Source of the DNA: Lysobacterales bacterium
Lineage (GTDB): Bacteria; Pseudomonadota; Gammaproteobacteria; Xanthomonadales; Xanthomonadaceae
Assembly (NCBI GenBank): GCA_015655355.1
Contig: JAATFG010000069.1
Coordinates: 1 to 51,400, forward strand
Direction of reading: 5' to 3'
DNA length: 51,400 nt
This document shows positions 27,895 through 48,988 of the stretch, one piece after another. The notes beneath the pieces are model-generated. The model saw only the letters and a list, made by a program, of their open reading frames with translations. It ran no database searches and was not told the origin of the DNA. The number at the start of each line of letters is the position of its first letter. Position 1 is the first letter of the stretch. Position numbers and translations under genes: made by a program.

Positions 27895-27898
27895 TGGC

Positions 27899-28948: not shown

Positions 28949-28972
28949 CGCGCCGGTTCTCACGAGGATGCG

Positions 28973-31339: not shown

Positions 31340-32686
31340 TCAACGCATCTGCAGGACGATGACGTTGCTGCTGGCCGGGTTGGTCTTGTCGCGCAGCGCC
31401 GTCACTTCTTCCGGCTTCACCGCGCCGCCGTGGTTGCCCCAGGAGGTGCGGACGAAGCTCAGCACGTCGGCGATTTCCTGGTCGCCGAGCTGGTTGCGGA
31501 ACGGCGGCATGCGGTAGGCGTCGGGAATGCCGGCGGCGACCACGCGTGCCGAACCGTTCAAGGCGGCGTTGATGCTCGAAGCATTCTCCTTCGCCAGCGA
31601 GGCGGCGCTGCCGGCCAGCGGCGGAATCCACGGCGCCTGTCCGCGTCCGTCCGCGCCATGGCAGAAGCTGCAACGCGCGGCGAAGATTTGCGCGCCGGGC
31701 GCGTCCGCCTGGGTGTCGTCCACTGCCGCGTATTGCCACGGCGCGCCATCGCGCCGCGCATCGCCCGGCAGCGACTTGAGGTAATGCGCGATCGCCTTGA
31801 GGTCGTCGTCGCTCATGTACTGGGTCGAATTGTTGAACGCATCGACCATCGAACCGAACACGACGGCGTGGCCGTTGCGCCCGGTTTTCAGGAACTGGCG
31901 GATGTCGTCCTCGCTCCAGCGGCCGAGGCCGGTGTTCGCATCCGCGCGCAGGCTCGGCGCGAGCCAGCCATCGAGCAGGGCGCCGGACAGATAGCGCGGA
32001 CTGTTGTCGTTCAGCGCCTTTTCGTTCATCGCCATGCCGCGCGGCGTGTGGCAACTGCCGCAATGGCCGGGACCCTGGACCAGATACGCGCCGCGGTTCC
32101 AGAGCGCGTCGGCGGACGCCTTCGGCCGGTACGTGCCCGCTTCGGTGAAGGCCACGCTCCACAGCGCCAGCGGCCAGCGCAGGTTCAACGGCCAGGAAAT
32201 CCCGCTCGGCGTGTTCGCCTGGCGCACCGGTTGCACGTCGTGCATGAACCACGCATAGAGCGCACGCACGTCGTCGTCGCCGAGCTTGGCGTAGGACGGA
32301 TACGGCATCGCCGGATACAGCCGGTGCCCGTCCCTGGCGACGCCATGGCGCAGCGCGCGGTCGAAATCCGCCAGCGTGTATTGGCCGATGCCGGTTCCCG
32401 CATCGGGGGTGATGTTGGTGGCGAAGATCGAACCCAGCGGCGTGGCCATTTCCAGGCCGCCGGCGAAGGGCTTGCCGTCCGCCGTGCTGTGGCAGGCGAC
32501 GCAATCGCCGAGGCGGGCGACGTATTCGCCGCGCCTGAGTTGGTCGGGCGATGGCGTTGCGTTGCCGGCCACGCCATCGAATGCTGAAGCCGGCGTGTGC
32601 GTCGCCACTGCGGTCACGCCGACAACGACGATGACGCAGACCGCCAACAGCGCGGCGAGGATTCGTTTCGTGCGGGTTTTCATCAT
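31340..32686 (-). CDS. Triheme cytochrome c, electron acceptor of the Mo hydroxylase
   Basis: About 448 residues. N-terminal signal/anchor helix (RILAALLAVCVIVVVGVTAVA) and three heme-binding motifs, CVACH, CGSCH and CSFCH, each starting its own cytochrome c domain, with Met ligands such as PYPSYAKL/PAMPYPS and RMPPFRNQL. This architecture is the membrane-bound cytochrome subunit found with alcohol, gluconate and IorAB-type aldehyde dehydrogenases. It lies 16 bp after the large subunit gene. Start is GTG at 32689 or ATG at 32686/32683. It would pass electrons from the periplasmic hydroxylase to the respiratory chain. Confidence 0.92.
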   Translation of the reverse strand: MMKTRTKRILAALLAVCVIVVVGVTAVATHTPASAFDGVAGNATPSPDQLRRGEYVARLGDCVACHSTADGKPFAGGLEMATPLGSIFATNITPDAGTGIGQYTLADFDRALRHGVARDGHRLYPAMPYPSYAKLGDDDVRALYAWFMHDVQPVRQANTPSGISWPLNLRWPLALWSVAFTEAGTYRPKASADALWNRGAYLVQGPGHCGSCHTPRGMAMNEKALNDNSPRYLSGALLDGWLAPSLRADANTGLGRWSEDDIRQFLKTGRNGHAVVFGSMVDAFNNSTQYMSDDDLKAIAHYLKSLPGDARRDGAPWQYAAVDDTQADAPGAQIFAARCSFCHGADGRGQAPWIPPLAGSAASLAKENASSINAALNGSARVVAAGIPDAYRMPPFRNQLGDQEIADVLSFVRTSWGNHGGAVKPEEVTALRDKTNPASSNVIVLQMR

Positions 32687-32702
32687 CACGGTCGCGTGCG
32701 GC

Positions 32703-34964: not shown

Positions 34965-35422
34965 GCCGCACCTCCCGCGGGGCCGGCCACGTCGTGCACG
35001 GCGGCGCTGATCGCGTTGTAGGTGCCGCAGCGGCACAGGTTGACCATCGCCGCGGCGATCTGCGCATCGTTCGGATGCGCGTTGCGCTTGAGCAGCGCGG
35101 TCGCCGCCAGCACTTGCCCCGACTGGCAGTAGCCGCATTGCGGCACCTGGTGCTTGATCCAGGCCGCGACGACGCGCTTGCCGACGGCGTCTTCCTCGAT
35201 CGCTTCGATCGTGGTGATGTGCTTGCCCGCCATGCCCGCGACCGGGGTGACGCAGGAACGCACCGCCACGCCGTCCACCAGCACGGTGCAGGCACCGCAT
35301 TGGGCCAGGCCGCAGCCGTATTTGGTGCCGGTCAGGCCGAGGTCGTCGCGGATTACCCACAACAGGGGCGTATCGGCATCCGCCGCGACCTCGCAGGTCT
35401 TGCCGTTGATCTGAAGCTGCAT
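34961..35422 (-). CDS. Molybdenum hydroxylase, 2x[2Fe-2S] small subunit (isoquinoline 1-oxidoreductase alpha type)
   Basis: 153 residues. First cluster: GCGLAQCGACTVLVDGVAVRSC without the leading Tyr-Gly (four Cys, plant-ferredoxin type; shown in part as CGLAQCGACTV). Second cluster: QCGYCQSGQVL and NLCRCGTYNAI. No signal peptide, so it must be carried out with the Tat-bearing large subunit. GGAAGGTG precedes the ATG at 35422. 62 bp after xdhC, overlapping the large subunit gene by 4 bp. Confidence 0.95.
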   Translation of the reverse strand: MQLQINGKTCEVAADADTPLLWVIRDDLGLTGTKYGCGLAQCGACTVLVDGVAVRSCVTPVAGMAGKHITTIEAIEEDAVGKRVVAAWIKHQVPQCGYCQSGQVLAATALLKRNAHPNDAQIAAAMVNLCRCGTYNAISAAVHDVAGPAGGAA

Positions 35423-35484: not shown

Positions 35485-36582
35485 TCAGCCGTGGATGGTG
35501 CCGCCGAGCGAATACAGCGGGCCACCACCGCGACGATTGAGTGCCATCAGGATTTCCGCGACCACCGACATCGCGATTTCGGTCGGCGTTTCCGAGCCCA
35601 CATCGAGTCCGGCCGGTGCATGCAGGCGCCGCGCACTCGAGTAGCCGCCATCATCGCGCATGCGTTCGGCGCGTTCGCGCGAACCGAGCGCGCCGATGTA
35701 CACGGCCGATGAATCGCGCAGCGCGGCCAGGTAGGCAATGTCCTGCTCGACGTTGTGGGTCATCACCAGCACCGAGCTGTCCGCGTCCAGCGGCAGCAGC
35801 TCGCGCACGCGCGCCGGCCCGGCGCAGATCGCGCGCACGCCGGGCGCGAGTTGTTCCGCGGCGAGTCGGCGCGGATCGGAATCGACCAGGGTGAGCTGCC
35901 AGCCGAGCAGGTCGATCACCGGCACGAAGGCCTTGGCCGCGGCGTTGGTGCCGATGATCGCCAGCGCATGCGGCGGCGACACCGGTTCGACCAGCACTTC
36001 GGCTTCGCAACCGAGCGCGGGCAGGCGCAGCGTCAGCGCGTGACTGAGGCCATCGCGTTCGACCACGGCGGCGACCGCACGCGCCAGTACCGCATCGTCG
36101 AATTCGTCGTGGACGACGCCGTCCGCGTTCCAGATCAAATGCCGCGTCGGCGCGGGCCTGCCGTCGCGGCCGAACCATGTCGCCAGCCACACGTGGCGGC
36201 GGTTCTCGATGCAGGCCAGCAGCGGCTTGGCGAAGGCGGTCGATGCGGGGTCGAGCAACGGTTCGATCAGCACTTCGAGCTCTCCGCCGCAGCCCATTTC
36301 CAGCAGCACGTCCATGCCGGATTCGGCGTTGTAGGCCACGGTTTGCGGCGTGCCGTCGGCGATCGATTCCTGCGAGCGCAGCACGATGTCGCGCTGCGGG
36401 CAACCGCCGGAAAGTTCGCAGACCACGCGGCTGTCGGCGTGCACCAGCATGCGCGTGCCGGCGCGGCGGAAGGTGGAGCCGTGGGTGCGCACCAGCGTGA
36501 CCAGCGCGGCATCGGCGCTGGCCGCGGCGCGAAGATCGCGCAGCGCGTGCAGCAGGATGCGCCATTCCTGTGCCGAATTCAT
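35485..36582 (-). CDS. xdhC: XdhC/CoxI-family molybdenum hydroxylase maturation factor
   Basis: 365 residues. N-terminal XdhC domain (TLVRTHGSTFRRAGTRMLVH, LSGGCPQRDIV, EMGCGGELEVLIEP) and a C-terminal Rossmann-like XdhC domain (LAIIGTNAAAKAFVPVIDLL, VYIGALGSRERAERM, TPTEIAMSVVAEI). These proteins bind the Mo cofactor, help install the terminal sulfido ligand and insert it into xanthine-oxidase-type enzymes. GAGGAA precedes the ATG. It starts 22 bp after rcoM and leads into the hydroxylase genes, so it probably serves the IorAB-type enzyme. Confidence 0.92.
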   Translation of the reverse strand: MNSAQEWRILLHALRDLRAAASADAALVTLVRTHGSTFRRAGTRMLVHADSRVVCELSGGCPQRDIVLRSQESIADGTPQTVAYNAESGMDVLLEMGCGGELEVLIEPLLDPASTAFAKPLLACIENRRHVWLATWFGRDGRPAPTRHLIWNADGVVHDEFDDAVLARAVAAVVERDGLSHALTLRLPALGCEAEVLVEPVSPPHALAIIGTNAAAKAFVPVIDLLGWQLTLVDSDPRRLAAEQLAPGVRAICAGPARVRELLPLDADSSVLVMTHNVEQDIAYLAALRDSSAVYIGALGSRERAERMRDDGGYSSARRLHAPAGLDVGSETPTEIAMSVVAEILMALNRRGGGPLYSLGGTIHG

Positions 36583-36604: not shown

Positions 36605-37381
36605 TCACAGGCCGACGATGTCGCGCAGCGTGCGCGTGTGCGAACGGCTGACCGGGATGCGGGTCAGTTCCGGGCGGTCGAACACGATGAACATGGTTTC
36701 GCCGTCGCGCTCGATCTCGCGCACGTGGGTCAGGTTGACGATGTGGCTGCGATGGCAGCGGAAGAACACCTCGGGATCGAGGCGTTCCTCCAGGTCGCTC
36801 AGCGACAGGTTGCTCAGGTAGCGTTCCGATGCGGTGACGATCCAGGTGTAGTGATCGTTGGATTCCAGCCGCAGCGTGTCCTCCAGGTCGATCAGCACGA
36901 GACGGTTGGCGCGGTACACGGGGATCTTGTTCAGGCGCCGCAGCGGCAACTGGGCTTCGTTGCCGACGTCGTGTTCGGCGGGCAGGGTGGTGAACTCGGT
37001 CAGGTCGTAATAGATCATGCACGTGCCGACGATGCCGCCATCGGTGCCGATCATCTTCGACACCTTCAGCAGCAGCACGCGGTCGGGGATGTTGATCATC
37101 ATCGTCACCGGCGGCGGCGATGGCACCGGGCATGCGCCCGCTTTCTTCGGGTCTTCGCCGCCGAGCAGCAGTTCGAGCTTGTCGCGGCTTTTGGGCGGAT
37201 GCAGCTTGAGCAGGTCGATGCCCATCAACTGGTCGCGCGGCACGCCGAGGGTCTGCTCGCTGGCGCGCGCCAGCAACTGCCAGGCGAGGTCGTTGAAGCC
37301 GGTGACGTGGTTCTCCTTGTCCAGCCAGACCATGCCAACGTCGAGCCGCTGCAATTGGTACTGCAGGCTTTCGTGATCCAT
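36605..37381 (-). CDS. rcoM: RcoM-type CO-sensing heme PAS-LytTR transcriptional regulator
   Basis: 258 residues. N-terminal PAS domain (about 8-130) and LytTR DNA-binding domain (about 152-256, with YLSNLSLSDLEERLDPE and FFRCHRSHIVNL). It matches Burkholderia xenovorans RcoM closely, as I recall that sequence. The known haem ligands His74, Cys94 and Met104 correspond to His61 (LHPPKSRDKL), Cys84 (ACPVPSPPPV) and Met94 (VTMMINIPDR); the Cys-to-Met spacing of 10 is the same. So it should bind heme, sense CO and activate transcription when CO is bound. GGGAGGGGAA precedes the ATG at 37381. It heads a leftward operon and is divergent from ompW and the cox genes. Confidence 0.92.
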   Translation of the reverse strand: MDHESLQYQLQRLDVGMVWLDKENHVTGFNDLAWQLLARASEQTLGVPRDQLMGIDLLKLHPPKSRDKLELLLGGEDPKKAGACPVPSPPPVTMMINIPDRVLLLKVSKMIGTDGGIVGTCMIYYDLTEFTTLPAEHDVGNEAQLPLRRLNKIPVYRANRLVLIDLEDTLRLESNDHYTWIVTASERYLSNLSLSDLEERLDPEVFFRCHRSHIVNLTHVREIERDGETMFIVFDRPELTRIPVSRSHTRTLRDIVGL

Positions 37382-37412
37382 TTCCCCTCCCGTGGTTGGT
37401 GGCGCACAGCGG

Positions 37413-37470
37413 CATTGGCTGCCGTTGACGATTCGATTCGTTCCGGTCGCGCACGCATGCCGCCGTTGGC
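37413..37470 (+). promoter_or_regulatory. Repeated C(A/G)TTGGC elements between rcoM and ompW, candidate RcoM sites
   Basis: CATTGGC at 37413-37419 is followed 10 bp later by CGTTGAC (37423-37429), a one-helical-turn direct repeat of the kind LytTR domains bind. CGTTGGC recurs at 37464-37470, and GGCGAACGTC occurs twice (37468-37477, 37559-37568). CATTGGC occurs again at 38293-38299 before coxM. I do not remember the published RcoM site well enough to score a match. Confidence 0.35.
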
Positions 37471-37589
37471 GAACGTCGCATTGCAACCGCGTTGCGCACC
37501 TGCCCATGGTCTGCGCGCGTTTGAGGCCGTGGTGCCCTGCGTTCCGCAGGCGGCGACCGGCGAACGTCATCGAAAGGAGGATAGTACCC

Positions 37590-38210
37590 ATGAGTACGTT
37601 ACGCATGTTTTGCGGCGCGGCATTGTTGTGGTCCGCGATCTCCGTCACGGCGCATGCGCAGGACGCGCCGGGCTGGTTGATCAAGCTCGGCGTGCACGAC
37701 GTGGCGCCGAAGTCGGACAACGGCACGTTGGCCGGTGGCGCGCTGGCGGTGGACGTCGACGATTCGGTGCGACCGACCGCGACCTTCGAGTATCTGTTCA
37801 CGCCGCACCTCGGCGTCGAGGCGATCGTGGCCTGGCCGTTCCAGCACAAGGTCGAGTTGAATGGCGCGCAGGCGGCGAAGGTGGAGCAGTTGCCGCCGAC
37901 GGTCTCGCTGCATTACCACTTCAACCCGGGTGGCACGGTTTCGCCCTTCGTCGGCGTCGGCGTCAACTACACCCGTTTCTTCGACATCCAGGAAGAAGGC
38001 CCGCTTGAAGGCGCCAACCTCGATCTCGATTCGTCGTGGGGCGTGGCCGCGCATGCGGGCCTGGATTTCCGCATCGACGCGCACTGGCTGGCGGGCGTCG
38101 ACGTGCGCTGGATCGACATCGACACCAAGGCCAAGGTCAACGGCGCCGATGTCGGCACGGTGAACATCGACCCGTGGGTGTATGGCGCCTACGTCGGCTA
38201 TCGCTTCTGA
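37590..38210 (+). CDS. ompW: OmpW-family outer-membrane protein
   Basis: 206 residues. Signal peptide 1-24 (ends VTAHAQ), then GWLIKLGVHDVAPKSDNG, the OmpW opening. TFEYLFTPHLGVEAIVAWPF, LPPTVSLHYHFNPGG, SPFVGVGVNYTRFF and the terminal YVGYRF complete the eight-strand barrel pattern. AAAGGAGG precedes the ATG at 37590. It has its own terminator, so it is a separate unit between rcoM and coxM. OmpW proteins are thought to pass small hydrophobic molecules; a link to CO metabolism is only positional. Confidence 0.92.
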   Translation: MSTLRMFCGAALLWSAISVTAHAQDAPGWLIKLGVHDVAPKSDNGTLAGGALAVDVDDSVRPTATFEYLFTPHLGVEAIVAWPFQHKVELNGAQAAKVEQLPPTVSLHYHFNPGGTVSPFVGVGVNYTRFFDIQEEGPLEGANLDLDSSWGVAAHAGLDFRIDAHWLAGVDVRWIDIDTKAKVNGADVGTVNIDPWVYGAYVGYRF

Positions 38211-38245
38211 GGCAGCGCATTCGCCGCGACGAAAAAACGCCGGGA

Positions 38246-38271
38246 GGGTTGTGCGATGCACAACCCTTTTT
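38246..38271 (+). terminator. Rho-independent terminator after ompW
   Basis: GGGTTGTGC (38246-38254) pairs perfectly with GCACAACCC (38258-38266) around a GAT loop, followed by T5 (38267-38271). It separates ompW from the cox operon, so coxM should have its own promoter in 38272-38400. Confidence 0.92.
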
Positions 38272-38292
38272 CGTTCGCGCGAAGGCTGCGGC

Positions 38293-38299
38293 CATTGGC
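38293..38299 (+). promoter_or_regulatory. CATTGGC element upstream of coxM
   Basis: Same heptamer as at 37413 in the rcoM-ompW spacer, 101 bp before the coxM start. Proposed as a possible RcoM half-site in the cox promoter region; a seven-base match is weak evidence by itself. Confidence 0.2.
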
Positions 38300-38400
38300 G
38301 GTGGAATGCCGCCGTTTCGCGAAACCAGGTTTGCGCCGATGCGCCCGACAGGCTTTGCTGTGCGCAGAGTGCCATCACGACACACCGGAGGGGTTTGACG

Positions 38401-39267
38401 ATGATTCCGCGTCCGTTCGAGTACCACGCACCATCGTCGGTGGACGACGTGGTGAAGTTGCTGGTCGATCTTGGCGACGATGCCAAGCTGCTTGCCGGCG
38501 GCCACAGCTTGCTGCCGATGATGAAGCTGCGCTTCGCCGAACCCGGTCACCTGATCGACCTCGGACGCATCCCGGCGCTGAAATACATTGCCCAGGAAGG
38601 CAACGAAATCCGCATCGGCGCGATGACCAGCGAGAACGAGCTGATCTGGTCGCCGTTGCTGAAGGAAAAAATCCCGTTGCTGGTCGAAGCGGCCGGGCTG
38701 ATCTCCGATCCGCAGGTGCGCTACAAGGGCACCATCGGCGGCGACATCTCGCATGGCGATCCCGGCAACGACCATCCGGCGCTGATGCTGTGCCTGGGCG
38801 CGTCGTTCGTGTTGCGCGGGCCGAAAGGCGAGCGCGTGGTGCCGGCGGCCGGCTATTTCCTCGGCACCTACATGACCGCGATCCAGCCGGACGAGCTGAT
38901 GACCGAGGTACGCATCCCGGTTCCCGCGGCCGGCAGCGGCTGGTGCTACGCCAAGCTCAAGCGCAAGACCGGCGATTTCGCCACCGCGGCCACCGCGGTG
39001 CAGTTGCAGATGCAGGGCGACACGGTGCAGTCGGTGTCGATCGCGCTGACCAATGTCGCCGATACCGCATTGAAGGCGAGCGATGCCGAAGCCGCACTGC
39101 TCGGCAGGAAACTCGACGATGCCGCGATCGAAGACGCTGCGCGGAAGGCGATGGCGATCTGCAGTCCGGTCGAGGATTTGCGCGGCGACGTCGAATACAA
39201 GACCGCGATGGCCGGCGAGATGACCCGGCGCGCGCTGCACACCGCTGCCGCGCGCGCGAAACGCTGA
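38401..39267 (+). CDS. coxM: Aerobic CO dehydrogenase, medium (FAD) subunit
   Basis: 288 residues, about the length of Oligotropha CoxM. FAD-binding motifs AGGHSLLPMMKLRFAEP (residues about 32-48) and TIGGDISHGDPGNDHPA (about 110-126) are both intact. CoxM carries electrons from the iron-sulfur clusters to quinone via FAD. GGAGGGG lies 9 nt before the ATG at 38401. First gene of the cox operon; 13 bp before coxS. Confidence 0.96.
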   Translation: MIPRPFEYHAPSSVDDVVKLLVDLGDDAKLLAGGHSLLPMMKLRFAEPGHLIDLGRIPALKYIAQEGNEIRIGAMTSENELIWSPLLKEKIPLLVEAAGLISDPQVRYKGTIGGDISHGDPGNDHPALMLCLGASFVLRGPKGERVVPAAGYFLGTYMTAIQPDELMTEVRIPVPAAGSGWCYAKLKRKTGDFATAATAVQLQMQGDTVQSVSIALTNVADTALKASDAEAALLGRKLDDAAIEDAARKAMAICSPVEDLRGDVEYKTAMAGEMTRRALHTAAARAKR

Positions 39268-39280
39268 TTGAGGAACGACG

Positions 39281-39832
39281 ATGGCAACGAAGAAAACCCT
39301 GGTCAGCTTCAAGCTCAACGGCGGCGACGTCGACGTCGCGGTCGAGCCGCGCGAGCTGCTGATCCACACCTTGCGCGAAAAGCTCGCCCACACCGGCCCG
39401 CACATCGGCTGCGAGACCACGCATTGCGGCGCATGCACGGTCGATTTCAACGGCATCTCGGTGAAGTCGTGCACGGTGTTGACGGTGCAGGCCGAAGGCG
39501 CCGACATCCTCACCATTGAAGGCATCGCCGCGAAAGCGAAGGAAGGCGAGACCCTGCATGCATTGCAGGAGGGCTTCACCCAGGAACACGGCTTGCAATG
39601 CGGCTTCTGCACGCCGGGGATGATTACCCGCGCCTACCGCCTGTTGCAGGAAAACCCGAGCCCGAGCGACGAGGAAGTGCGCTACTGGATGGCCGGCAAC
39701 CTGTGCCGCTGCACCGGCTACCAGAACATCGTCAAGGCGATCCAGTACGCGGCGAAGAAACTGCGCGGCGAGCCGGTCGAAACCTCGCACCCGCTGATGG
39801 GCGAATCCACCGAACCGGCGGCCACCGCCTGA
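39281..39832 (+). CDS. coxS: Aerobic CO dehydrogenase, small (2x[2Fe-2S]) subunit
   Basis: 183 residues. Cluster motifs: [19 protein letters not shown] with a following SC (plant-ferredoxin type), [10 protein letters not shown] and [12 protein letters not shown] (alpha-helical type). It relays electrons from the Mo-Cu site in CoxL to FAD in CoxM. GAGGAA precedes the ATG. A C-terminal tail of about 25 residues (after AAKKLRGE) is present as in other CoxS proteins. Confidence 0.96.
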
Positions 39833-39852
39833 GCGCGACAGGAGAGAACGAC

Positions 39853-42264
39853 ATGGGTCTGCTCGAAAAGAACGACGAACGCCTGGAAAAACTCGAAGGC
39901 ATCGGCTGCGCGCGCAAGCGCCGCGAAGACCCGCGCTTCATCCAGGGCAAGGGCAACTACGTCGATGACGTGAAGATGCCGGGCATGACCTTCGGAGTGA
40001 TGGTGCGCAGTCCGTATGCGCACGCCAAGATCAAGAGCATCGACACCAGCAAGGCCACCGCGCTGCCGGGGGTGATCGCGGTGGTCACCGCGGAAACGCT
40101 CAAGCCGTTCAAGCTGCACTGGATGCCGACGCTGGCCGGCGACGTGCAGGCGGTGCTGGCCGACGGCAAGGTCAGTTTCCAGAACCAGGAAGTCGCCTTC
40201 GTCGTCGCCGAGGATCGCTACATCGCCGCCGACGCGGCCGATCTGGTCGAAGTCGAATACGAGGAACTGCCGGTCGTGGTGGATCCGTTCAAGGCGCTGG
40301 AGCCGGATGCGCCGGTGATCCGCGACGATCTGGCCGGCAAGGACACCGGCGCGCACGGCCCGCGCAAGCACCACAACCACATTTTCAACTGGCAGGTCGG
40401 CGACAAGGACAAGACCGCGCGTGCGTTCGACGCGGCCGAAGTCACCGTCAAGCAGGACATGCAGTACCAGCGCGTGCATCCGTGCCCGCTGGAAACCTGC
40501 GGCTGCGTCGCTTCGTTCGACAAGATCAAGGGCGACCTCACCGTCTACATCACCTCGCAGGCGCCGCACGTGGTGCGCACCGTGGTCGGCCTGCTGTCGA
40601 GCATTCCCGAATCGAAGATCCGCATCATCTCGCCGGACATCGGTGGCGGTTTCGGCAACAAGGTCGGCGTGTATCCGGGCTATGTCTGCGCGATCGCCGC
40701 GAGCATCGTGCTCGGTCGCCCGGTGAAGTGGATCGAATCGCGTGCCGAGAACCTCACCACCACCGCGTTCGCGCGCGATTACTGGATGACCGGCGAACTG
40801 GCCGCGACGAAAGAGGGCGTGATCAAGGCGCTGCGCGTGCACGTCACCGCCGACCACGGCGCGTTCGACGCCTGTGCCGACCCGACCAAGTGGCCGGCTG
40901 GCATGTTCCATGTCTGCACCGGCTCGTACGCGATTCCGAACGCGCACGTCGAGGTCGATGGCGTCTATACCAACAAGTTCCCCGGCGGCGTCGCCTATCG
41001 CTGCTCGTTCCGCGTCACCGAGGCGGTCTATCTGATCGAGCGCATGATCGACGTGCTCGCGCAGAAGCTTGGCATCGACAAGGCCGAAATCCGCCTGCGC
41101 AACTTCATCCAGAAGGAACAGTTCCCGTGGCAGACGCCGCTGGGGCTGGAATACGATTCGGGCGATTATCCGACCGCGCTCAAGAAAGTGCTCGATGCGG
41201 TCGATTACAAGGCTTTGCGCGCCGAGCAGGCGGCCAAGCGCGCCGATCCGAATTCGGAAACGCTGATGGGCATCGGCATCGTCACCTTCACCGAGATCGT
41301 CGGCGCCGGCCCCTCGAAGATGTGCGACATCCTCGGCGTGGGCATGTTCGATTCCTGCGAAATCCGCGTGCATCCGGACGGTTCCGCGATCGCGCGCATG
41401 GGCACGATCACCCAGGGGCAGGGCCACCAGACCACCTATGCGCAGATCATCGCCACCGAGACCGGCATTCCCGCGTCGGTGATCCACACCGAGGAAGGCG
41501 ACACTTCGACCGCGCCTTACGGCCTGGGCACCTACGGTTCGCGCTCGACGCCGGTGGGCGGCGCGGCCACCGCGCGCTGCGCGCGCAAGATCCGCGAGAA
41601 GGCGCGGCGCATTGCCGCGCATCTGCTCGAAGTGTCGCCGGACGATCTCGAATTCGACCTGGATCGCTTCGTGGTCAAGGGCAATCCCGAGCAAGCGAAA
41701 ACGATGAAGGAAATCGCCTGGGCCGCATACAACAACGTGCCGCCGGGCGAGGAGATGGGGCTGGAGGCGGTCGATTACTACGATCCGCCGAATTTCACCT
41801 TCCCGTTCGGTGCGTACCTGTGCGTGGTCGACATCAACAGGTTCAGCGGCGAAACCAAGGTGCGCCGCTTCTACGCACTGGACGACTGCGGCACGCGGAT
41901 CAACCCGATGATCATCGAAGGCCAGATCCACGGCGGCCTCACCGAAGGCCTCGCGGTGGCGATGGGCCAGGAGCTGCCGTTCGACGAACAAGGCAACGTG
42001 CTCGGCGGCACGCTGATGGACTACTTCGTGCCGACGATGATGGAAACGCCGGTGTCGGAAACCGATTACACGGTCACCCCCAGCCCGCACCATCCGATCG
42101 GAGCGAAGGGCGTGGCCGAATCGCCGCACGTCGGTTCGATCCCGACCTTCACTTCGGCGGTGGTCGATGCGTTTTCGCATCTGGGCATCACCCACATGAA
42201 CATGCCGCACAACGCGTACCGCGTGTGGCAGCAATCGCACGCCCTCGGACTGGACAAGCACTGA
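39853..42264 (+). CDS. coxL: Form I aerobic CO dehydrogenase, large (Mo-Cu) subunit
   Basis: 803 residues (Oligotropha CoxL is 809). The form I signature AYRCSFR spans residues 381-387, with Cys384 as the copper ligand; form II enzymes have AYRGAGR instead. The catalytic Glu is Glu756 in GAKGVAESPHVGS. Mo-cofactor contacts include DIGGGFGNKVGVYPGY and ITQGQGHQTTYAQI. It oxidises CO to CO2, giving electrons to the respiratory chain. AGGAGA precedes the ATG at 39853. This gene is the strongest evidence for CO oxidation in the organism. Confidence 0.97.
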   Translation: MGLLEKNDERLEKLEGIGCARKRREDPRFIQGKGNYVDDVKMPGMTFGVMVRSPYAHAKIKSIDTSKATALPGVIAVVTAETLKPFKLHWMPTLAGDVQAVLADGKVSFQNQEVAFVVAEDRYIAADAADLVEVEYEELPVVVDPFKALEPDAPVIRDDLAGKDTGAHGPRKHHNHIFNWQVGDKDKTARAFDAAEVTVKQDMQYQRVHPCPLETCGCVASFDKIKGDLTVYITSQAPHVVRTVVGLLSSIPESKIRIISPDIGGGFGNKVGVYPGYVCAIAASIVLGRPVKWIESRAENLTTTAFARDYWMTGELAATKEGVIKALRVHVTADHGAFDACADPTKWPAGMFHVCTGSYAIPNAHVEVDGVYTNKFPGGVAYRCSFRVTEAVYLIERMIDVLAQKLGIDKAEIRLRNFIQKEQFPWQTPLGLEYDSGDYPTALKKVLDAVDYKALRAEQAAKRADPNSETLMGIGIVTFTEIVGAGPSKMCDILGVGMFDSCEIRVHPDGSAIARMGTITQGQGHQTTYAQIIATETGIPASVIHTEEGDTSTAPYGLGTYGSRSTPVGGAATARCARKIREKARRIAAHLLEVSPDDLEFDLDRFVVKGNPEQAKTMKEIAWAAYNNVPPGEEMGLEAVDYYDPPNFTFPFGAYLCVVDINRFSGETKVRRFYALDDCGTRINPMIIEGQIHGGLTEGLAVAMGQELPFDEQGNVLGGTLMDYFVPTMMETPVSETDYTVTPSPHHPIGAKGVAESPHVGSIPTFTSAVVDAFSHLGITHMNMPHNAYRVWQQSHALGLDKH

Positions 42265-42267
42265 CGC

Positions 42268-42930
42268 ATGAAACTCGATCTCGACAAAACCTTTCCCATG
42301 CCCGGCAGCGTCGATGCCGCCTGGGCGTTCCTGCAGGACATCGCGGGCGTGGCCGGCTGCATGCCCGGCGCGAAGATCACCGAGAAGATCGACGACACCC
42401 ACTACAAGGGCACGGTGTCGGTGAAGGTCGGCCCGGCCAGCCTGTCGTTCAAGGGCGACATCGAAGTGCTGCAAGTCGATGCGGCCACGCGCACGGTGCA
42501 CCTGCTCGGCAAGGGTTCGGACACCACCGGCAGTTCCGGCGCATCGATGGATCTGGTTGCGCACGTCGAGGCTGGCGCCGATGCAAACAGCAGCAACCTG
42601 GTCGGCAAGAGCGAGATGACCGTCAACGGCAAGGCCGCGGCGTTCGGCGGACGCATGATGGGCAGCGTCACCGAGCAGATCCTCAAGCAGTTCGCCGACA
42701 ACTTCGCCGCCAACGTGCAGCAGTTGCAGGCGCAAAGTACGGCTCCAGTTCCTGCCGCGAACGATGCGAATGGCGCCGAACCGGGTGCCCCCTCTTCCGT
42801 CACGCCGGTGTCCGCCCCTTCCCAGGCGCCGGTTGCGGCCAAGGCCAATGCCGAGCTCAACGCCTTCGCCCTGTTCTGGGCGGTGGTACGCGACTGGTTC
42901 CGCAACCTGTTCCACCGCAGCACGGCCTGA
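42268..42930 (+). CDS. coxG: CoxG, SRPBCC-domain CO dehydrogenase partner
   Basis: 220 residues. Residues 1-150 form the CoxG/SRPBCC lipid-binding-like fold (MPGSVDAAWAFLQDIAGVAG, CMPGAKI, GDIEVLQVD). A Pro/Ala-rich linker (about 150-195) leads to a C-terminal amphipathic or membrane-binding helix (NAFALFWAVVRDWFRNLF). CoxG is reported to help membrane attachment of CO dehydrogenase and, from mycobacterial work, to bind quinone for it. It begins 3 bp after coxL; in Oligotropha coxG lies later in the cluster. Confidence 0.92.
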   Translation: MKLDLDKTFPMPGSVDAAWAFLQDIAGVAGCMPGAKITEKIDDTHYKGTVSVKVGPASLSFKGDIEVLQVDAATRTVHLLGKGSDTTGSSGASMDLVAHVEAGADANSSNLVGKSEMTVNGKAAAFGGRMMGSVTEQILKQFADNFAANVQQLQAQSTAPVPAANDANGAEPGAPSSVTPVSAPSQAPVAAKANAELNAFALFWAVVRDWFRNLFHRSTA

Positions 42931-42946
42931 GCGCAGGACACCGCCG

Positions 42947-43837
42947 ATGGGCAGCCGCATGCAATCCGTTGTCGCACTGCAACAGAGCCTGCAGGACGCC
43001 GGCTACATCGCCGAACGCCCGCTGGCGGCCACGTTGCTGTTGATGGATGAGCTGAAACGGCCGTTGCTGCTGGAAGGCGAGGCCGGTGTCGGCAAGACCG
43101 AGATCGCGAAAGTGCTGGCGCGCCTGCATGCCACCGACTGCATCCGCCTGCAATGCTACGAAGGCCTCGACGTGCATTCGGCGATGTACGAATGGAATTA
43201 CCAGCGCCAGTTGCTCGCGATCCGCCTGCTCGACCGCGATGATCGCTCGATGCAGGCCAAGGAGGAGGACATCTTCTCCGAGCGTTACTTGCTCAAGCGC
43301 CCCTTGCTGGAATCGATCACCCGCGAGCACGCCGTCGTGTTGCTGATCGACGAGATCGACCGCGCCGACGAAGCCTTCGAGGCCTATCTGCTTGAATTGC
43401 TTTCCGATTTCCAGCTGTCGATTCCCGAACTGGGCACGATCACGGCGATGTCACGGCCGTGGGTGGTGCTGACCAGCAACGGCACGCGCGAGTTGTCCGA
43501 CGCGTTGCGCCGGCGTTGCCTGTACCACTACGTCGAATACCCGGATTTCGCCAAGGAATTGCGCATCGTCGAAACGCGCCTGCCGCAGGCGCCGGCGACG
43601 TTGGCGCGGCAATTGGTCGAGTTCGTGCAATCGCTGCGCGGCCTCGATCTGCAACGCAAGCCGGGCATCGCCGAAACGCTCGACTGGGCCGCGGCGCTGC
43701 TGCGCCTCGACGTCGAACGGCTGGATGCGGCGGAACCGGAAGCGATCCTCGAAAGCCTGTCGGCCCTGTTGAAGACGCGCGGCGATCGTGCCGGCATGAC
43801 CGCGGACGTGGTGCAGCGACTGGTGGCCGCATGTTGA
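42947..43837 (+). CDS. coxD: CoxD, MoxR-type AAA+ ATPase
   Basis: 296 residues. Walker A GEAGVGKTE (about 42-50), Walker B VVLLIDEIDRADE, sensor/arginine region LTSNGTRELSDALRRRC. In Oligotropha, CoxD is needed for building the [CuSMoO2] active site (sulfuration and Cu insertion), probably by remodelling apo-CO dehydrogenase. Start at 42947 with AGGA upstream; a second in-frame ATG lies four codons later. Overlaps coxE by 7 bp. Confidence 0.94.
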   Translation: MGSRMQSVVALQQSLQDAGYIAERPLAATLLLMDELKRPLLLEGEAGVGKTEIAKVLARLHATDCIRLQCYEGLDVHSAMYEWNYQRQLLAIRLLDRDDRSMQAKEEDIFSERYLLKRPLLESITREHAVVLLIDEIDRADEAFEAYLLELLSDFQLSIPELGTITAMSRPWVVLTSNGTRELSDALRRRCLYHYVEYPDFAKELRIVETRLPQAPATLARQLVEFVQSLRGLDLQRKPGIAETLDWAAALLRLDVERLDAAEPEAILESLSALLKTRGDRAGMTADVVQRLVAAC

Positions 43838-45030
43838 ATGCCGACGCCCGCATGCACGCTTCGGGCACGCCGTCGCCGGGCGATGCGCTGCGCGCGCGGT
43901 TGACCGGATTCGTTTCGTTCCTGCGCGAAAACGGCTTCAACGTCGGCCTCGACGACGCGGCGTTGCTGATCGACGCGGCGGCGCATGGCGATGTGTTCGA
44001 GCGCGAATTGCTGCGCTGGAACGCGCGCGCCTTGTTGTGCCGGCGCGCCGAAGACCTCGAACGCTTCGATGCGCTGTTCGATGCATGGTTCCTGCCGCCG
44101 AACCGGCGCAAGCTGGTGCAAAGCCGCGGCGGCGGCATCGGTGCGCTGGAACGTCCGCGCGGCGAGCGCAACGACGAAAGTCGCGATGGCAGTGAAGGCA
44201 TGCCGGTCGCCGCCAATGACGATTCCGGCGGCGATGCGATGCCCGACGGCGGTGCGGCGCAGCGCGGCGCCAGCGATGCCGAAGCGCTGGGCAATGCCGA
44301 TTTCCGCCACCTGCACCAGCCGAACGAGATGCGCGCGATGGATGCGTTGATGCGCCAGTTCGCGCGCGAACTGCGCACGCTGATGTTGCGTCGCGAACGC
44401 AGTGGCGGTGGGCAACGCATCGACCTGCCGGGCACCGCGCGGCGCAGCGTTGGCCACGGTGGCGAACCGATCGAACTGGCGTTCCGCGAGCGCCGCCGCA
44501 CCAAGCCGCGCCTGGTATTGCTGCTCGACGTCAGCCGCTCGATGAATCTTTACAGCTTCTTCTTCCTGCGCTTGGCGCGTGCGTTGCAGGGTGCGCATTT
44601 CGACACCCAAGTGTTCGTCTGGCACACGCGGTTGACTGGCGTCAGCGAGGCGCTGCGCGATGCCGACCCGTGGCGCGCGGCCGAACGCCTGCAGATGTTC
44701 TCGGCTGGCTGGGCAGGCGGCACCCGCATCGGCGAATGCCTGCTCGAATTCGAGCGTATGCAGCTGGCGCTGGTGCACTCGCGCACCGCGCTGCTGGTGG
44801 TCAGCGATGGTTACGACACCGGTGAGCCGGCGCTGCTGTCGTCGGTGCTGGGGCGCCTGCGCCGGCGCGCGCGGCGCATCGTGTGGTTGAACCCGCTGGC
44901 CGGTCGTGACGGCTACGAACCCTTGGCGCAGGGCATCCGCGCGGCGTTGCCGCATCTGGATCTGCATGCGCCCGCGCACGACCTGGCCAGCGTCGCCCGC
45001 GTGCTGAAACCGCTGGCGCGCGCGTTGTGA
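43831..45030 (+). CDS. coxE: CoxE, von Willebrand A-domain maturation protein
   Basis: 399 residues. N-terminal VWA-CoxE helical region (FVSFLRENGFNVGLDDAALL), an acidic low-complexity linker (about 110-150), and a C-terminal VWA domain with an intact MIDAS motif, VLLLDVSRSMN. CoxE works with CoxD in copper insertion into the CO dehydrogenase active site. GWAGGTRIGECLLEF is typical of the family. It overlaps coxD and is 16 bp before the XdhC-YHS gene. Confidence 0.94.
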   Translation: MLNADARMHASGTPSPGDALRARLTGFVSFLRENGFNVGLDDAALLIDAAAHGDVFERELLRWNARALLCRRAEDLERFDALFDAWFLPPNRRKLVQSRGGGIGALERPRGERNDESRDGSEGMPVAANDDSGGDAMPDGGAAQRGASDAEALGNADFRHLHQPNEMRAMDALMRQFARELRTLMLRRERSGGGQRIDLPGTARRSVGHGGEPIELAFRERRRTKPRLVLLLDVSRSMNLYSFFFLRLARALQGAHFDTQVFVWHTRLTGVSEALRDADPWRAAERLQMFSAGWAGGTRIGECLLEFERMQLALVHSRTALLVVSDGYDTGEPALLSSVLGRLRRRARRIVWLNPLAGRDGYEPLAQGIRAALPHLDLHAPAHDLASVARVLKPLARAL

Positions 45031-45046
45031 ACAACGGAGGACTGCC

Positions 45047-46093
45047 ATGAGCCATGTCGAATTGATCGATCTTTCCCGTGATTTCCTGCGCCAGGCGCAC
45101 GCGCATGCATGGGTCACGGTGATCGCTGTGAAATCGCCGAGCTCGGCCTATCTCGGTGCGCAGGCGCTGGTCGAGGCCGACGGCACGATGCACGGCTGGA
45201 TCGGTGGCGGCTGCGTGCAAGGCGCGGTGAAGGCGGCGGCGATGCGCGCGATCGCCGCGGACAAGCCGGTGCGCTTGCGCCTGAGCAACGATGGCGAGGA
45301 AATGGAGGGCGTGGACGTGCAACCGATGCTGTGCGCCAGCAATGGCGAAGTGGAGCTCTTCATCCAGCCGGCGGCGGTCGCGCCGCGCCTGCGCGTCTAC
45401 GGCGGCACGCCGACGGCGAAGTCGGCGGCGTGGTTCGCACGCGAAGCCGGCTTCGAGGTCACCACCGATGCTTCCGTGGCCGAGGCGAAGCGCTTTGCCG
45501 ATGCCGGCGGCGCGGCGCAGGCGCATCTGTCCTCGCAGCCGGAGCCGGAAGCCTATGCGCTGGTCGCGACCCAGGGCGACAACGACGAACTCGCGCTGGA
45601 AGACGCATTGCGTTCGCGCGTGCGTGCCGTGCTGGTGGTCGCCAGCGCGCGCAAGGCCGAGCGCCTGCGTTCGGTGATGCGGATGCGCGGCATGACCGAG
45701 GAGCGTCTTGCCGACATGCACGCGCCGGCAGGCCCGGATCTCGGCGCGGTGACGCCGAACGAAATCGCGTTGTCGGCGGTAGCGGGACTGGTTGCCTTGC
45801 GTCGCGGCAAGCGCATCGTCGGCAAACCGGCGAAAGAGACGGAAAAATCGCACGGCCATGCCGCCGCTCAGGTGAAGCCGATTGCGTTGCCATCGGTCGG
45901 CGCGGGTGGCTACGTCAATCCGGTGTGCGGCGCGGCGGTCGATCCGGCCACCGCGATGAGCAGCCTGACCATGCAAGGGCAAACCCATTATTTCTGCTGT
46001 ACCGGCTGCCGCGCCGAATTCGAGCGCGACCCGGCCAAGTACCTGGCCATCGGTGCGCAGATGCATGGCAGTGGCGCGGGAGTGGAAGCATGA
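45047..46093 (+). CDS. coxF: CoxF/XdhC-family maturation factor fused to a C-terminal YHS domain
   Basis: 348 residues. XdhC N-terminal part (WVTVIAVKSPSSAYLGAQAL, GWIGGGCVQGAV with Cys56) and XdhC Rossmann part (LRVYGGTPTAKSAAWFARE; VTPNEIALSAVAGLVALRRG), then a linker and a YHS domain from about 287 to 333 with Cys294, Cys317, Cys318 and Cys321 (NPVCGAAVDP, HYFCCTGC). YHS domains occur in copper-transport proteins and bind metals. So this protein may link Mo-cofactor insertion with copper delivery for the Mo-Cu site. The xdhC at 35485 has no such domain. GGAGG precedes the ATG at 45047. Confidence 0.9.
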   Translation: MSHVELIDLSRDFLRQAHAHAWVTVIAVKSPSSAYLGAQALVEADGTMHGWIGGGCVQGAVKAAAMRAIAADKPVRLRLSNDGEEMEGVDVQPMLCASNGEVELFIQPAAVAPRLRVYGGTPTAKSAAWFAREAGFEVTTDASVAEAKRFADAGGAAQAHLSSQPEPEAYALVATQGDNDELALEDALRSRVRAVLVVASARKAERLRSVMRMRGMTEERLADMHAPAGPDLGAVTPNEIALSAVAGLVALRRGKRIVGKPAKETEKSHGHAAAQVKPIALPSVGAGGYVNPVCGAAVDPATAMSSLTMQGQTHYFCCTGCRAEFERDPAKYLAIGAQMHGSGAGVEA

Positions 46094-46740
46094 ATGCCAT
46101 CGCGCCGTATTCCGTGGTGCTGCTCGCGGCCGGTTCCTCGACGCGGATGGAAGGTCGCTTCAAGCAACTGTTGCCGCTGCCGACCCGCGAGGGCGAACAG
46201 CCGGCGGTGCGCATCACCGCGCAGGCGTTGCTCGCCGCCGGTGCCGAGGAAATCGTCGTCGTCACCGGCCATCGCGGCCGCGAAGTGATGGAGGCGCTGG
46301 GTGATCTGCCACTGGATTTTCGCAGCAATCCGCGCCACGCCGAAGGCCAGATGACCTCGGTCATTGCCGGCCTGTCCGCGTTGCAGCGGCCGTGCCTGTC
46401 GGTGATGGTGTGCCTGGCCGACATGGTTTTGTTGGGTGCGGACGATTACCGTGAACTGGCTGCGGCGTTCACTGGGTTGCCGCGCGATGCGATCCTCGTG
46501 CCGTACCACGGCGGCCTGCGCGGCAATCCGGTGCTGTTCGCCGCCAGCCGCGTGCCGGAAGTGCTGAGCGGACAGATCAATCCTGGTTGCCGCAAGCTGA
46601 TCCAGGACCATCCCGACGACGTGGTGAAGCACGAGGTTGGCCACGACCGCTGCACCACCGACATGGACACGTGGGACGACTACCTGCGCATCCGCGCGCG
46701 TTTCGCCGGCGAACGCGCGCCGGCGGCGAAGGTCGCCTGA
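46090..46740 (+). CDS. mocA: MocA-like molybdenum cofactor cytidylyltransferase of the cox operon
   Basis: 216 residues. VVLLAAGSSTRMEGRFKQLLPL (nucleotide/Lys motif; first 12 residues most diagnostic), VCLADMVLL (Mg-binding Asp), LRGNPVLFAASRVPEVL and TDMDTWDDYLRI mark the MocA branch. CO dehydrogenase uses the MCD form of the cofactor, which this enzyme should make. It is the second MocA-like gene in the window, each in the operon of one Mo hydroxylase. Overlaps coxF by 4 bp. Confidence 0.88.
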   Translation: MNAIAPYSVVLLAAGSSTRMEGRFKQLLPLPTREGEQPAVRITAQALLAAGAEEIVVVTGHRGREVMEALGDLPLDFRSNPRHAEGQMTSVIAGLSALQRPCLSVMVCLADMVLLGADDYRELAAAFTGLPRDAILVPYHGGLRGNPVLFAASRVPEVLSGQINPGCRKLIQDHPDDVVKHEVGHDRCTTDMDTWDDYLRIRARFAGERAPAAKVA

Positions 46741-46741
46741 C

Positions 46742-47266
46742 GTGCACGCCGCGCGCATGTCCGCCGCGATGCCGTCGCGTCGTTCCGGCATGTGGCCGAT
46801 GCTCGCCTTCGGCACGGTGGGCATGCTGCTGGGTCTGTGCCTCGACGCGCGGCGCGGTGGATTGCTGCAATTGACGAGTTGGTGCGGGCTCGGCGATGGC
46901 GCGCCGTGGCAATCGCTGCGCCTGCATTGGCTGCAACTGCCGGCGATGCACGCCGGAATGTTGTTGGGCAGCCTGTGCGCGCTGCCACTGGCGCACTACA
47001 TCGCCGCGCGACCGCGCGCATGGAAAACCGACGTGGCCTGCAGCCTTGCGTGTTGTGCGTGCATGGCTGCGGGCATGGATATCGCCGCGATTTCTTGTTC
47101 GCGCGCAGGCGGCATCGGCGCGAACGCGATGTGGTGGCTGATGTTCGCCGGCATGCTCGCCGGCATGGCGTTCGCGCGGTTCGCCGTTGCCTGCGCCGCT
47201 TCCATGCGGCACCGCGTTTCCAGTGTCATGCTGCGCTGCAGCCATCGCTTCGATCCCCGCGTCTGA
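46742..47266 (+). CDS. Met/Cys/His-rich four-helix membrane protein of the cox operon
   Basis: About 174 residues with four predicted membrane helices: WPMLAFGTVGMLLGLCLD, LQLPAMHAGMLLGSLCALPL, TDVACSLACCACMAAGMDIA and NAMWWLMFAGMLAGMAFARF. I do not recognise a family. The helices carry many Met, Cys and His (for example PAMHAGM, CSLACCACMAAGM), a pattern seen in copper-handling membrane proteins. A GTG start at 46742 lies 1 bp after the mocA stop, with GAAGG upstream; ATG at 46757 is an alternative. Position at the end of the cox operon suggests a role in Cu supply or membrane anchoring; this is inference. Confidence 0.65.
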   Translation: MHAARMSAAMPSRRSGMWPMLAFGTVGMLLGLCLDARRGGLLQLTSWCGLGDGAPWQSLRLHWLQLPAMHAGMLLGSLCALPLAHYIAARPRAWKTDVACSLACCACMAAGMDIAAISCSRAGGIGANAMWWLMFAGMLAGMAFARFAVACAASMRHRVSSVMLRCSHRFDPRV

Positions 47267-47410: not shown

Positions 47411-48166
47411 ATGATCGACGTCGAATTCCGCATCGTTTCGGACCATCGCGATGGGCTGATGCTGGGCATGGGCCAGATCATCATGGCCAGTGGCTTCGAA
47501 GTGTTGCGCCCGAAGATCAGCGCATGTGACGAAGGCACGCTGTTGGCCGTCACCGCGCGTGGCCCGCAGCAAAAGTTGCTGGAATTGCAGGATCGGCTTG
47601 GCAGCCATCCGCTGGTCAGGAGTTTCGAGGCGCGCTTGCCGGAAACGGCGCTGGCAGAGGCCGGGAAAACGCCCGTGGATGCCGTGGTCATCGCTTCGGT
47701 TCCCGCCGATGCGATGCCGGACCGCGCCGCCGCCGAACTCTTGTTGCCGCAACTGGCGCGCGACTACCCGAAGATCGCCAAGAAGCTGCTTGATTTCGAC
47801 CGCGGCCTCGATTCAGGCAAGCGTGAGGCGACGATGCGCTATGTCGGCACGCGCGTCGGCGCATGGCTGTACAAGCGCGATTACACGCTCGGCGCGCGCT
47901 TGGATTTGGCCGATTCGATCCGCCAGATCGCGCTGCCGGCGTTGCGCCAATGGCTGGGTGCGGTTGAAGCCTCCGGCGCAAACTTGCGCGTTTCCGACAG
48001 CCCGTTCTGCGGCAGCGGATTGCATCACGGCCACAGTTGCCACTTCATCCGCGGCGAACTGGAAGGACTGCTCAACGAGTCCGGGCACCTGGGCCGACTG
48101 CGTGTCGTGGAAAGCGAATGCCGCAACGCCGGCAACGCTGCCTGCGTTTTCGAGTTCACCACCTGA
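47411..48166 (+). CDS. V4R-domain protein (small-molecule / hydrocarbon binding)
   Basis: 251 residues. The C-terminal 150 residues look like a V4R (4-vinyl reductase) domain, ending with CHFIRGELEGLLNE and VVESECRNAGNAACVFEF, the typical G-x-L-x-G and C-x(8)-C-x-F pattern. The first 80 residues resemble an ACT-like fold (MIDVEFRIVSDHRDGLMLG). V4R domains bind small ligands in regulators such as XylR/DmpR; here no output domain is attached, so it may be a stand-alone sensor or carrier. GGGGAG precedes the ATG. Separated from the cox genes by 144 bp and from the MHYT gene by 63 bp. Confidence 0.75.
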   Translation: MIDVEFRIVSDHRDGLMLGMGQIIMASGFEVLRPKISACDEGTLLAVTARGPQQKLLELQDRLGSHPLVRSFEARLPETALAEAGKTPVDAVVIASVPADAMPDRAAAELLLPQLARDYPKIAKKLLDFDRGLDSGKREATMRYVGTRVGAWLYKRDYTLGARLDLADSIRQIALPALRQWLGAVEASGANLRVSDSPFCGSGLHHGHSCHFIRGELEGLLNESGHLGRLRVVESECRNAGNAACVFEFTT

Positions 48167-48229: not shown

Positions 48230-48988
48230 ATGAACATGCACGACCATGCCATCCAATGCGTACACGATCCGGTGCTCGTCACCTTGTCGTACCTGATCGC
48301 GGTACTGGGTTCCTACACGGCGCTGCAACTGGCCATCGGCATTCCGGCGGCGCGTAGCGCTGGCGAACGCTGGGGCGCGATCACCGCTGCCGCTGCCGCG
48401 ATGGGCGGCGGTGCGATCTGGGCGATGCATTTCATCGCGATGCTTGCCTGCAAGATGGACATGGCGATCAGCTACGACGCGCCGTTGACGGTGCTGTCGG
48501 CCTTGATCGCGATCGCATCGTGCATGGTCGGTTTGGCGATTGCCGGCGGTGGCGTGTTCACTGCCTCGAAGCTGGCGCTCGGCGGCATCTTCATGGGCTT
48601 GGGCGTCGCCGGCATGCACTACACCGGCATGCAGGCGATGCGGATGCCGGCCACGCTCCATTACAACGTCGAGCTGGTGCTGGCGTCCATCGCGATCGCG
48701 GTGGTCGCATCGATCGCGGCGTTGTGGCTGGCCTTCCACATGCGTGGCGTGGTGCAGATGATCGGCAGCGCGCTGGTGATGGGCGTGGCGGTGTGCGGCA
48801 TGCACTACACCGGCATGTACGCCGCCAGCTTCGAGCCGAACGGCGTGGATGCCGCGACGGCGACGCAGAATGGCCTCAGCGGCGCGAACCTGGGCACGAC
48901 GGTGTTCGTCGTGGCTGCGGTGCTGCTGGTCAGCGTGCTGACGATCAATGTCGTCCGCCAGCGGCGCAGGGCGATGGTGCAGATCTGA
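48230..48988 (+). CDS. Stand-alone MHYT-domain membrane sensor (CoxC/CoxH/CoxK-like)
   Basis: 252 residues, seven predicted membrane helices and three MHYT-type motifs: AIWAMHFIAML, GVAGMHYTGMQAM and AVCGMHYTGMYAA. The conserved Met, His and Cys near the outer membrane face are proposed to bind copper and sense O2, CO or NO. MHYT domains are found in CoxC, CoxH and CoxK of Oligotropha. No kinase, GGDEF or DNA-binding output domain follows, so signalling must go through a partner. GAGGGGG precedes the ATG at 48230. Its place after the cox operon supports a role with CO metabolism. Confidence 0.9.
   Translation: MNMHDHAIQCVHDPVLVTLSYLIAVLGSYTALQLAIGIPAARSAGERWGAITAAAAAMGGGAIWAMHFIAMLACKMDMAISYDAPLTVLSALIAIASCMVGLAIAGGGVFTASKLALGGIFMGLGVAGMHYTGMQAMRMPATLHYNVELVLASIAIAVVASIAALWLAFHMRGVVQMIGSALVMGVAVCGMHYTGMYAASFEPNGVDAATATQNGLSGANLGTTVFVVAAVLLVSVLTINVVRQRRRAMVQI

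Follow-up and report, generated by a model that had tools for sequence, protein, structure and literature searches.

How might a heterotrophic bacterium of the order Xanthomonadales (Lysobacterales) come to oxidise carbon monoxide (CO)? The question is raised by contig JAATFG010000069.1 of assembly GCA_015655355.1, a stretch of 51,400 nucleotides referred to here as the window, in which a gene for the haem-type CO sensor RcoM lies beside a complete operon for form I CO dehydrogenase. Both belong to a molybdenum island of about 23 kb, in which the cox locus is joined by genes for molybdate transport, cofactor synthesis and a second molybdenum enzyme, and it is very probable that this island enables its host to oxidise CO. 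The gene set is already known from Burkholderia relatives; what stands out is the host, the surrounding island and a membrane protein encoded after mocA.

The form I CO dehydrogenase operon next to rcoM

The operon coxMSLGDEF-mocA (38401-46740) is contiguous, lies on one strand and comprises the following genes.

38401-39267, forward strand: coxM, flavin adenine dinucleotide (FAD) subunit (PF00941, PF03450)
39281-39832, forward strand: coxS, 2Fe-2S subunit (NCBIfam matches below their cut-offs; 80% identical to Dyella CoxS)
39853-42264, forward strand: coxL, form I CO dehydrogenase large subunit (TIGR02416, 1449.4 bits against a cut-off of 991; AYRCSFR motif)
42268-42930, forward strand: coxG (PF06240, E 9.4e-20)
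42947-43837, forward strand: coxD, AAA+ ATPase (AAA domains; 82% identical to its positional counterpart in Dyella)
43831-45030, forward strand: coxE, VWA protein (PF05762, E 2.7e-56)
45047-46093, forward strand: coxF, XdhC-type protein whose C-terminus is a YHS domain (PF13478, PF02625, PF04945)
46090-46740, forward strand: mocA-type molybdopterin cytosine dinucleotide cytidylyltransferase (TIGR03310, 113 bits, below the cut-off of 186)

The cysteine of the AYRCSFR active-site motif is the copper ligand of the enzyme. In the window's CoxL, which starts at the ATG at 39853 and is 803 residues long, this cysteine is residue 384, and the motif aligned to the same motif in CutL of H. pseudoflava (1ffu). 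The preliminary description of this DNA, which had named both the motif and a complete form I operon beside rcoM, was thus right on both counts, the TIGR02416 cut-off being passed, the M-S-L order kept and coxD, coxE and coxF present.

It had also regarded the position of coxG directly after coxL as a departure from the usual order, set against Oligotropha (A. carboxidovorans), where we take coxG not to lie next to coxL. We scanned GTDB species genomes by RcoM alignment; 90 relatives were confirmed (so that RcoM is not unique to the window), and 80 of them were kept; the survey set consists of 82 rcoM loci, two plasmid loci among them. CoxL was present in 78 of these loci and CoxG in 75, and G follows L directly in all 75 that have both, so the order is not deviant.

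As to maturation, CoxD has been assigned to sulphuration and CoxE with CoxF to copper insertion (PMC4240915, a text that does not mention YHS). A YHS tail is present in about 54 of 63 CoxF homologues from rcoM loci, and absent from those of Acidocellaceae and a few others; a regular expression found 24 of the 63, and when the remaining 39 tails were read by eye, 30 had the domain and 9 did not. A search of one open-access library, judged from its listings, found no paper on YHS in connection with CO dehydrogenase.

The term CO oxidiser, used in the preliminary description, stands as far as form I CO dehydrogenase and RcoM are concerned. It should read carboxydovore: no RuBisCO large subunit was found in the source metagenome-assembled genome (MAG; 94.2% complete), a CO-fuelled heterotroph is therefore likelier than an autotroph, and we rejected autotrophy on CO.

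RcoM retains the haem-ligand positions

Upstream of the operon, and facing it, lies the sensor gene.

36605-37381, reverse strand: rcoM, haem-type CO sensor with a LytTR DNA-binding domain (LytTR, E 7.8e-26; 258 amino acids)

The protein is 73-74% identical to RcoM of Dyella and 53% identical to both P. xenovorans proteins, RcoM-1 and RcoM-2, and its His61, Cys84 and Met94 align with the ligand-spaced columns of the latter pair (20 residues from His to Cys, 10 from Cys to Met), in agreement with what had been proposed from the window alone. The published haem ligands we take to be His74, Cys94 and Met104, of which Met104 was confirmed in a reference title. When the window and 81 loci were aligned, the His and Met columns were invariant (82/82 each) and Cys was kept in 76 of 82. 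The other six homologues carry His (three), Gly (two) or Tyr (one) in place of Cys while retaining His and Met; such Cys-less proteins represent naturally occurring variation with respect to the redox ligand switch.

Predicted RcoM operators on either side of ompW

RcoM half-sites have been described as TTCNNGCA, in three copies 12-13 bp apart (PMC11347149). A first scan with this bare consensus ranked a site before coxM first, with p about 0.07 (60 mononucleotide shuffles of the region). It was followed by a matrix scan; to train the matrix, the best site in the spacer was taken for 45 of the 52 divergent loci, and the window and Dyella were left out. This identified two predicted sites, one on each side of a gene that the preliminary description had not listed.

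37425-37473, forward strand: predicted RcoM triplet operator before ompW, TTGACGAT-N13-GTCGCGCA-N12-TTGGCGAA (rank 2 of 410,800 placements)
37590-38210, forward strand: ompW family outer membrane protein (PF03922, E 4.3e-41)
38274-38323, forward strand: predicted RcoM triplet operator before coxM, TTCGCGCG-N13-TTGGCGGT-N13-TTCGCGAA (rank 1 of 410,800 placements)

The coxM-side site scores 22.67, a value reached by one of 100 dinucleotide shuffles. That the window's two best sites sit in the two spacers where operators would be required supports control of cox by RcoM. Among the divergent loci the best site falls in the spacer in 50 of 52, a count that is partly circular with training, and the best two do so in 23 of 52; in the co-directional loci the best site lies in the search zone in 18 of 24 and the best two in 6 of 24. 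An ompW gene between rcoM and coxM was found in six of the 82 loci (L037, L041, L043, L053, L062 and L074), and in all six the locus's two best sites fall one in each of the same spacers; four of the six contributed to the matrix, and L037 does not differ from L074 in either CoxL or RcoM. The two predicted operators fit the CO-inducibility proposed earlier and make a joint ompW and cox regulon directly testable. A search of one open-access library, judged from its listings, found no paper linking OmpW with RcoM.

From these elements we infer the following course of events. CO would bind RcoM at its His/Met haem, and the CO-bound protein would occupy the two triplet operators, switching on ompW and coxMSLGDEF-mocA. 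CoxMSL would then oxidise CO at its Mo-Cu site and pass the electrons to the respiratory chain, with a presumed gain of energy. CoxD would carry out sulphuration of that site and CoxE and CoxF, the latter with its YHS domain, the insertion of copper, while MocA, together with modABC, moeA, moaA, moaC, moaE and mobA of the island, would supply the molybdopterin-cytosine cofactor.

A rare trait in the host group

Of 38 same-genus genomes, only the one that contains the window has a CoxL of this type; among 398 genomes sampled from the order it was present in two, the other being Dyella sp. RRB7. The order includes a third carrier, Dyella sedimenti, which was found by name. The statement that the host group is not best known for this trait is borne out by these counts. 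RcoM proper was seen in none of 60 relatives among the matches listed, which start at residue 101 or later, and in three of 369 genomes sampled from the class (our own, G758 and G538).

Trees were built with a quick method and midpoint rooting, with the Shimodaira-Hasegawa-like approximate likelihood ratio test (SH-aLRT) as the only support measure. The phylogeny that had been called for as a check placed the window's CoxL with the two Dyella proteins (SH-aLRT 98) and its RcoM with the two Dyella proteins and a contig labelled Labilithrix (SH-aLRT 99; the RcoM tree carries a long-branch warning). Both groups sit among Burkholderiales and Acidocellaceae rows. By label, the 82 rows of the RcoM tree include 54 from Burkholderiales, four from Acetobacterales and two from Lysobacterales, both Dyella. 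The range of RcoM-linked CO dehydrogenase genes widens beyond Burkholderiales and takes in two families of Xanthomonadales (Lysobacterales). A search of one open-access library, judged from its listings, found no paper on CO genes in xanthomonads or Dyella. The Labilithrix contig (L042, 4.3 kb, labelled Labilithrix luteola in a Myxococcota MAG) is perhaps misbinned; its RcoM is 71% identical to the window's and its rcoM adjoins coxD- and coxE-like genes.

Molybdenum genes on the other side of rcoM

The island continues beyond rcoM with the following genes.

35485-36582, reverse strand: second XdhC-type maturation protein (PF13478, PF02625)
32703-35422, reverse strand: second molybdenum hydroxylase (2Fe-2S subunit 34961-35422; Mo subunit 32703-34964)
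31340-32689, reverse strand: cytochrome c (PF00034, PF13442)
24025-31332, both strands: genes for molybdate transport and molybdenum cofactor synthesis (forward strand: modA, modB, modC, moeA, moaA, moaC, mobA and moaE; reverse strand: mobA/mocA-like gene, 30763-31332)
23513-23827, reverse strand: weak ModE-like helix-turn-helix regulator, named by eye (HTH_1, E 1.5e-4, below the cut-off)

We regard the island as one unit that carries the genes for its own cofactor supply. The proteins encoded by rcoM, ompW, the cox genes, xdhC and the moa, moe and mob genes are 60-89% identical to those of Dyella sp. RRB7, moaE, mobA, moaC, moaA and moeA reaching 64-77% with the genes beside its cox cluster and xdhC 60%, although the order beside cox differs internally there. 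A ModE-like homologue (42-45%) also adjoins mocA in both Dyella loci.

We also built a MoaA tree, which included 20 further stretches taken from the MoaA matches. The island MoaA falls in a clade (support 99) with two genomes of the genus Dyella and the second MoaA copy of the same-genus genome G030 (one place, entered twice in the tree), apart from 11 same-genus MoaA rows. The island copy is the only MoaA of its own genome, and MoaA was not found in five of 37 same-genus relatives, including G002 and G031, the two closest by TrpD. A package of this kind could therefore equip hosts that lack molybdenum cofactor synthesis, such as G002 and G031 with no detectable MoaA.

Several other features of this side may be noted. 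The second molybdenum hydroxylase has a Tat-like (twin-arginine translocation) N-terminus, as judged by eye, and the cytochrome c is perhaps its electron acceptor. The ModE-like gene and modABC adjoin a gene for a TonB-dependent receptor (21489-23498), a candidate for uptake of a metal or chelate across the outer membrane.

Evidence against the reading, and alternative explanations

A number of observations weigh against an inducible CO-oxidising package carried as a unit. Pfam gave no match to a PAS domain in RcoM at E 1e-3, and the assignment of the sensor domain relies on full-length similarity to known RcoMs. The ompW-side site is weak (15.98, with 0.40 such sites per shuffled window) and convincing mainly because of its place and its alignment with the Dyella spacers. 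Elsewhere in the island, similarity to Dyella sp. RRB7 drops to 54% in the 2Fe-2S subunit, 36% in ModC, 35% in cytochrome c and 29% in the Mo subunit of the second enzyme, and modA and modB were not found within 32 kb around its locus. Within the stretches examined, molybdenum cofactor genes lie near rcoM in four of the 82 loci and not in that of Dyella sedimenti; the package is therefore not general. The G+C content of the island (0.656-0.681) hardly differs from that of the flanks (0.649-0.651), so that no clear compositional anomaly was found, and the core protein TrpD shows 69% and 74% identity in two genomes of Dyella's family. Because composition is flat and the divergence from Dyella resembles that of TrpD, the island may have arrived by an old horizontal transfer or may have been inherited vertically and lost many times. 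No tRNA lies within the window that would point to a tRNA-linked insertion.

Of the alternatives, that of a misbinned or chimeric contig, or island part, bringing the cox island from another genome of the same sample, survives best, and we consider it unlikely. The MAG comprises 2.65 Mb in 138 contigs, the window being contig 106, and the MAG's contamination of 7.49%, a further point against the reading above, speaks for such an error, as does the absence of this CoxL from all 37 other same-genus genomes. So does the fact that DNA homology to relatives starts only at the trpG start (near window 49161): in three relatives trpG follows trpE, or lies one gene further on, on a reading by eye, whereas the window's trpG has the MHYT gene as its upstream neighbour, and the genome's own trpE is apparently cut at the start of contig 7. 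This situation may reflect a rearrangement, or a join error near 49.1 kb that would leave the island untouched. Both contig ends match the same genus, the left with a xylulokinase-type gene (84% DNA identity to G002) and the right with TrpG and TrpD (86% protein identity to G002), and the V4R-MHYT pair that adjoins the island is also paired in the same-genus genomes G025 and G033. Nor can this be a contig of the nearest Dyella species, whose CoxL and RcoM are only 89% and 73% identical.

A still less probable alternative is that RcoM does not control cox and that the CO sensor is the MHYT protein, as in Afipia CoxC. The MHYT gene (48230-48988; MHYT domain, E 4.2e-47) stands 1.5 kb beyond mocA, and MHYT senses CO in CoxC (PMC11347149). 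Against this, no domain for binding DNA turned up in the protein's 252 residues, its homologues (63-67%) occur in five of 36 same-genus relatives, none of which carries this CoxL, and the operator sites fit RcoM. The preceding gene (47411-48166) has a weak V4R match (E 6.6e-6, below the cut-off), and the V4R and MHYT proteins are possibly a sensing pair of their own. As a part of the CO system the standalone MHYT protein was rejected as unlikely, the pair occurring in G025 and G033, which lack this CoxL.

Finally, it is very improbable that the enzyme is a form I-like hydroxylase acting on another substrate, or that CO oxidation has decayed. The neighbouring second molybdenum hydroxylase is not a CO dehydrogenase, and a glyceraldehyde dehydrogenase profile also matches CoxL, though with a score under the cut-off of that profile; but CoxL lies 458 bits above the CO dehydrogenase equivalog cut-off, contains the Cys motif, shows no internal stop and is accompanied by coxD, coxE and coxF.

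A Met-rich membrane protein encoded after mocA

Maturation factors of CO dehydrogenase are still missing, and identifying them has been named as a future challenge (PMC4240915). One gene of the window may bear on this.

46757-47266, forward strand: unnamed Met-rich membrane protein after mocA (169 amino acids, 15 of them Met; no family match)

A simple hydropathy scan gave four hydrophobic segments, and one to five in homologues. The protein has no Pfam, NCBIfam or PDB sequence match, and the 19 members of its family yielded one stray Pfam match only (E 0.065). Its AlphaFold2 model consists of helices (mean predicted local distance difference test score, pLDDT, 82.7), and Foldseek with this model returned nothing at E 0.001, the best match having E 0.4; neither a domain nor a fold characteristic of known copper transporters or chaperones could be recognised. 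Across the 19 aligned members C43, H57, M103, M107, M129 and M133 are kept in all, and M64, H65, M125 and M137 in at least 90%; the last hydrophobic stretch carries an MxxxMxxxMxxxM ladder.

Homologues occur in 28 of the 82 rcoM loci, placed after mocA or facing rcoM, and also in the G758 stretch; the profile used was built from the 19 members, and 18 of the 28 matching loci contributed to it. Among the 369 genomes of the class, the profile matched our own (which is in the profile) and G758 only, in the latter case on the rcoM contig, and gave no match in G538, the third rcoM genome of that sample. In 12 loci the homologue faces rcoM, and in each of these a predicted RcoM site directed towards the homologue lies in the gap. 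These sites are the first or second of their locus; eight are strong (15.7-22.0) and four weak (11.8-12.6), the lower scores being reached at sites elsewhere too. The 12 loci are close relatives and not independent cases, and were left out of matrix training; the gap site in them could also serve rcoM itself. In L102 the scan of a 450-base gap gave no site (-2.7), its site (15.7) lying farther from rcoM and still in the gap.

The conserved residues and the company of its gene suggest a possible role in copper handling. Tentatively, the protein may be one of the missing assembly factors of the Mo-Cu site, supplying copper and working with the YHS domain of CoxF. The odds of this are lowered by the lack of any profile match in the 32 kb that surround the locus of Dyella sp. 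RRB7, and no homologue was seen in the 1.1-1.2 kb beyond mocA in P. xenovorans; since it is missing near both clusters, the protein would not be essential in every host unless encoded elsewhere. If the assignment is true, it offers a concrete candidate for the copper route to the active site of CO dehydrogenase.

Comparison with the closest known systems

Among the closest arrangements is that of Dyella sp. RRB7 (NZ_JAKWJS010000002.1, L041), a member of another family, in which mocA-coxFEDGLSM-ompW faces rcoM and is joined by further blocks of cytochrome c, a second molybdenum hydroxylase and xdhC, and then moaE-mobA-moaC-moaA-moeA. It differs from the window in the reordered genes of its second molybdenum enzyme, with the unlike large subunit noted above, and in having no homologue of the Met-rich protein nearby. 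Plasmid pBN2 of P. aromaticivorans (NZ_CP022992.1), a Burkholderiales plasmid, carries rcoM, ompW, coxMSLGDEF, mocA and a Met-rich protein of the 46757 type, followed by XdhC; its CoxL and RcoM are 85% and 51% identical to the window's, and no molybdenum cofactor block was found in the stretch examined.

Cupriavidus ulmosensis CV2 and Paraburkholderia terrae COX, both of which oxidise CO, share the gene set with the window (coxMSL, coxGDEF, rcoM and mocA, in a layout identical between the two strains); they differ in their Burkholderiaceae hosts, and a linked block for molybdenum cofactor synthesis goes unmentioned in the available part of the source (PMC11771112). The P. xenovorans systems resemble the window in the identity and haem-ligand columns of RcoM given above, in LytTR and in triplet operator sites, and differ in that no ompW was found between rcoM and coxM. 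In A. carboxidovorans the cox genes are likewise under a CO-responsive regulator of LytTR type; this protein, CoxC, is a membrane MHYT repressor, in contrast to the soluble haem activator RcoM (PMC11347149).

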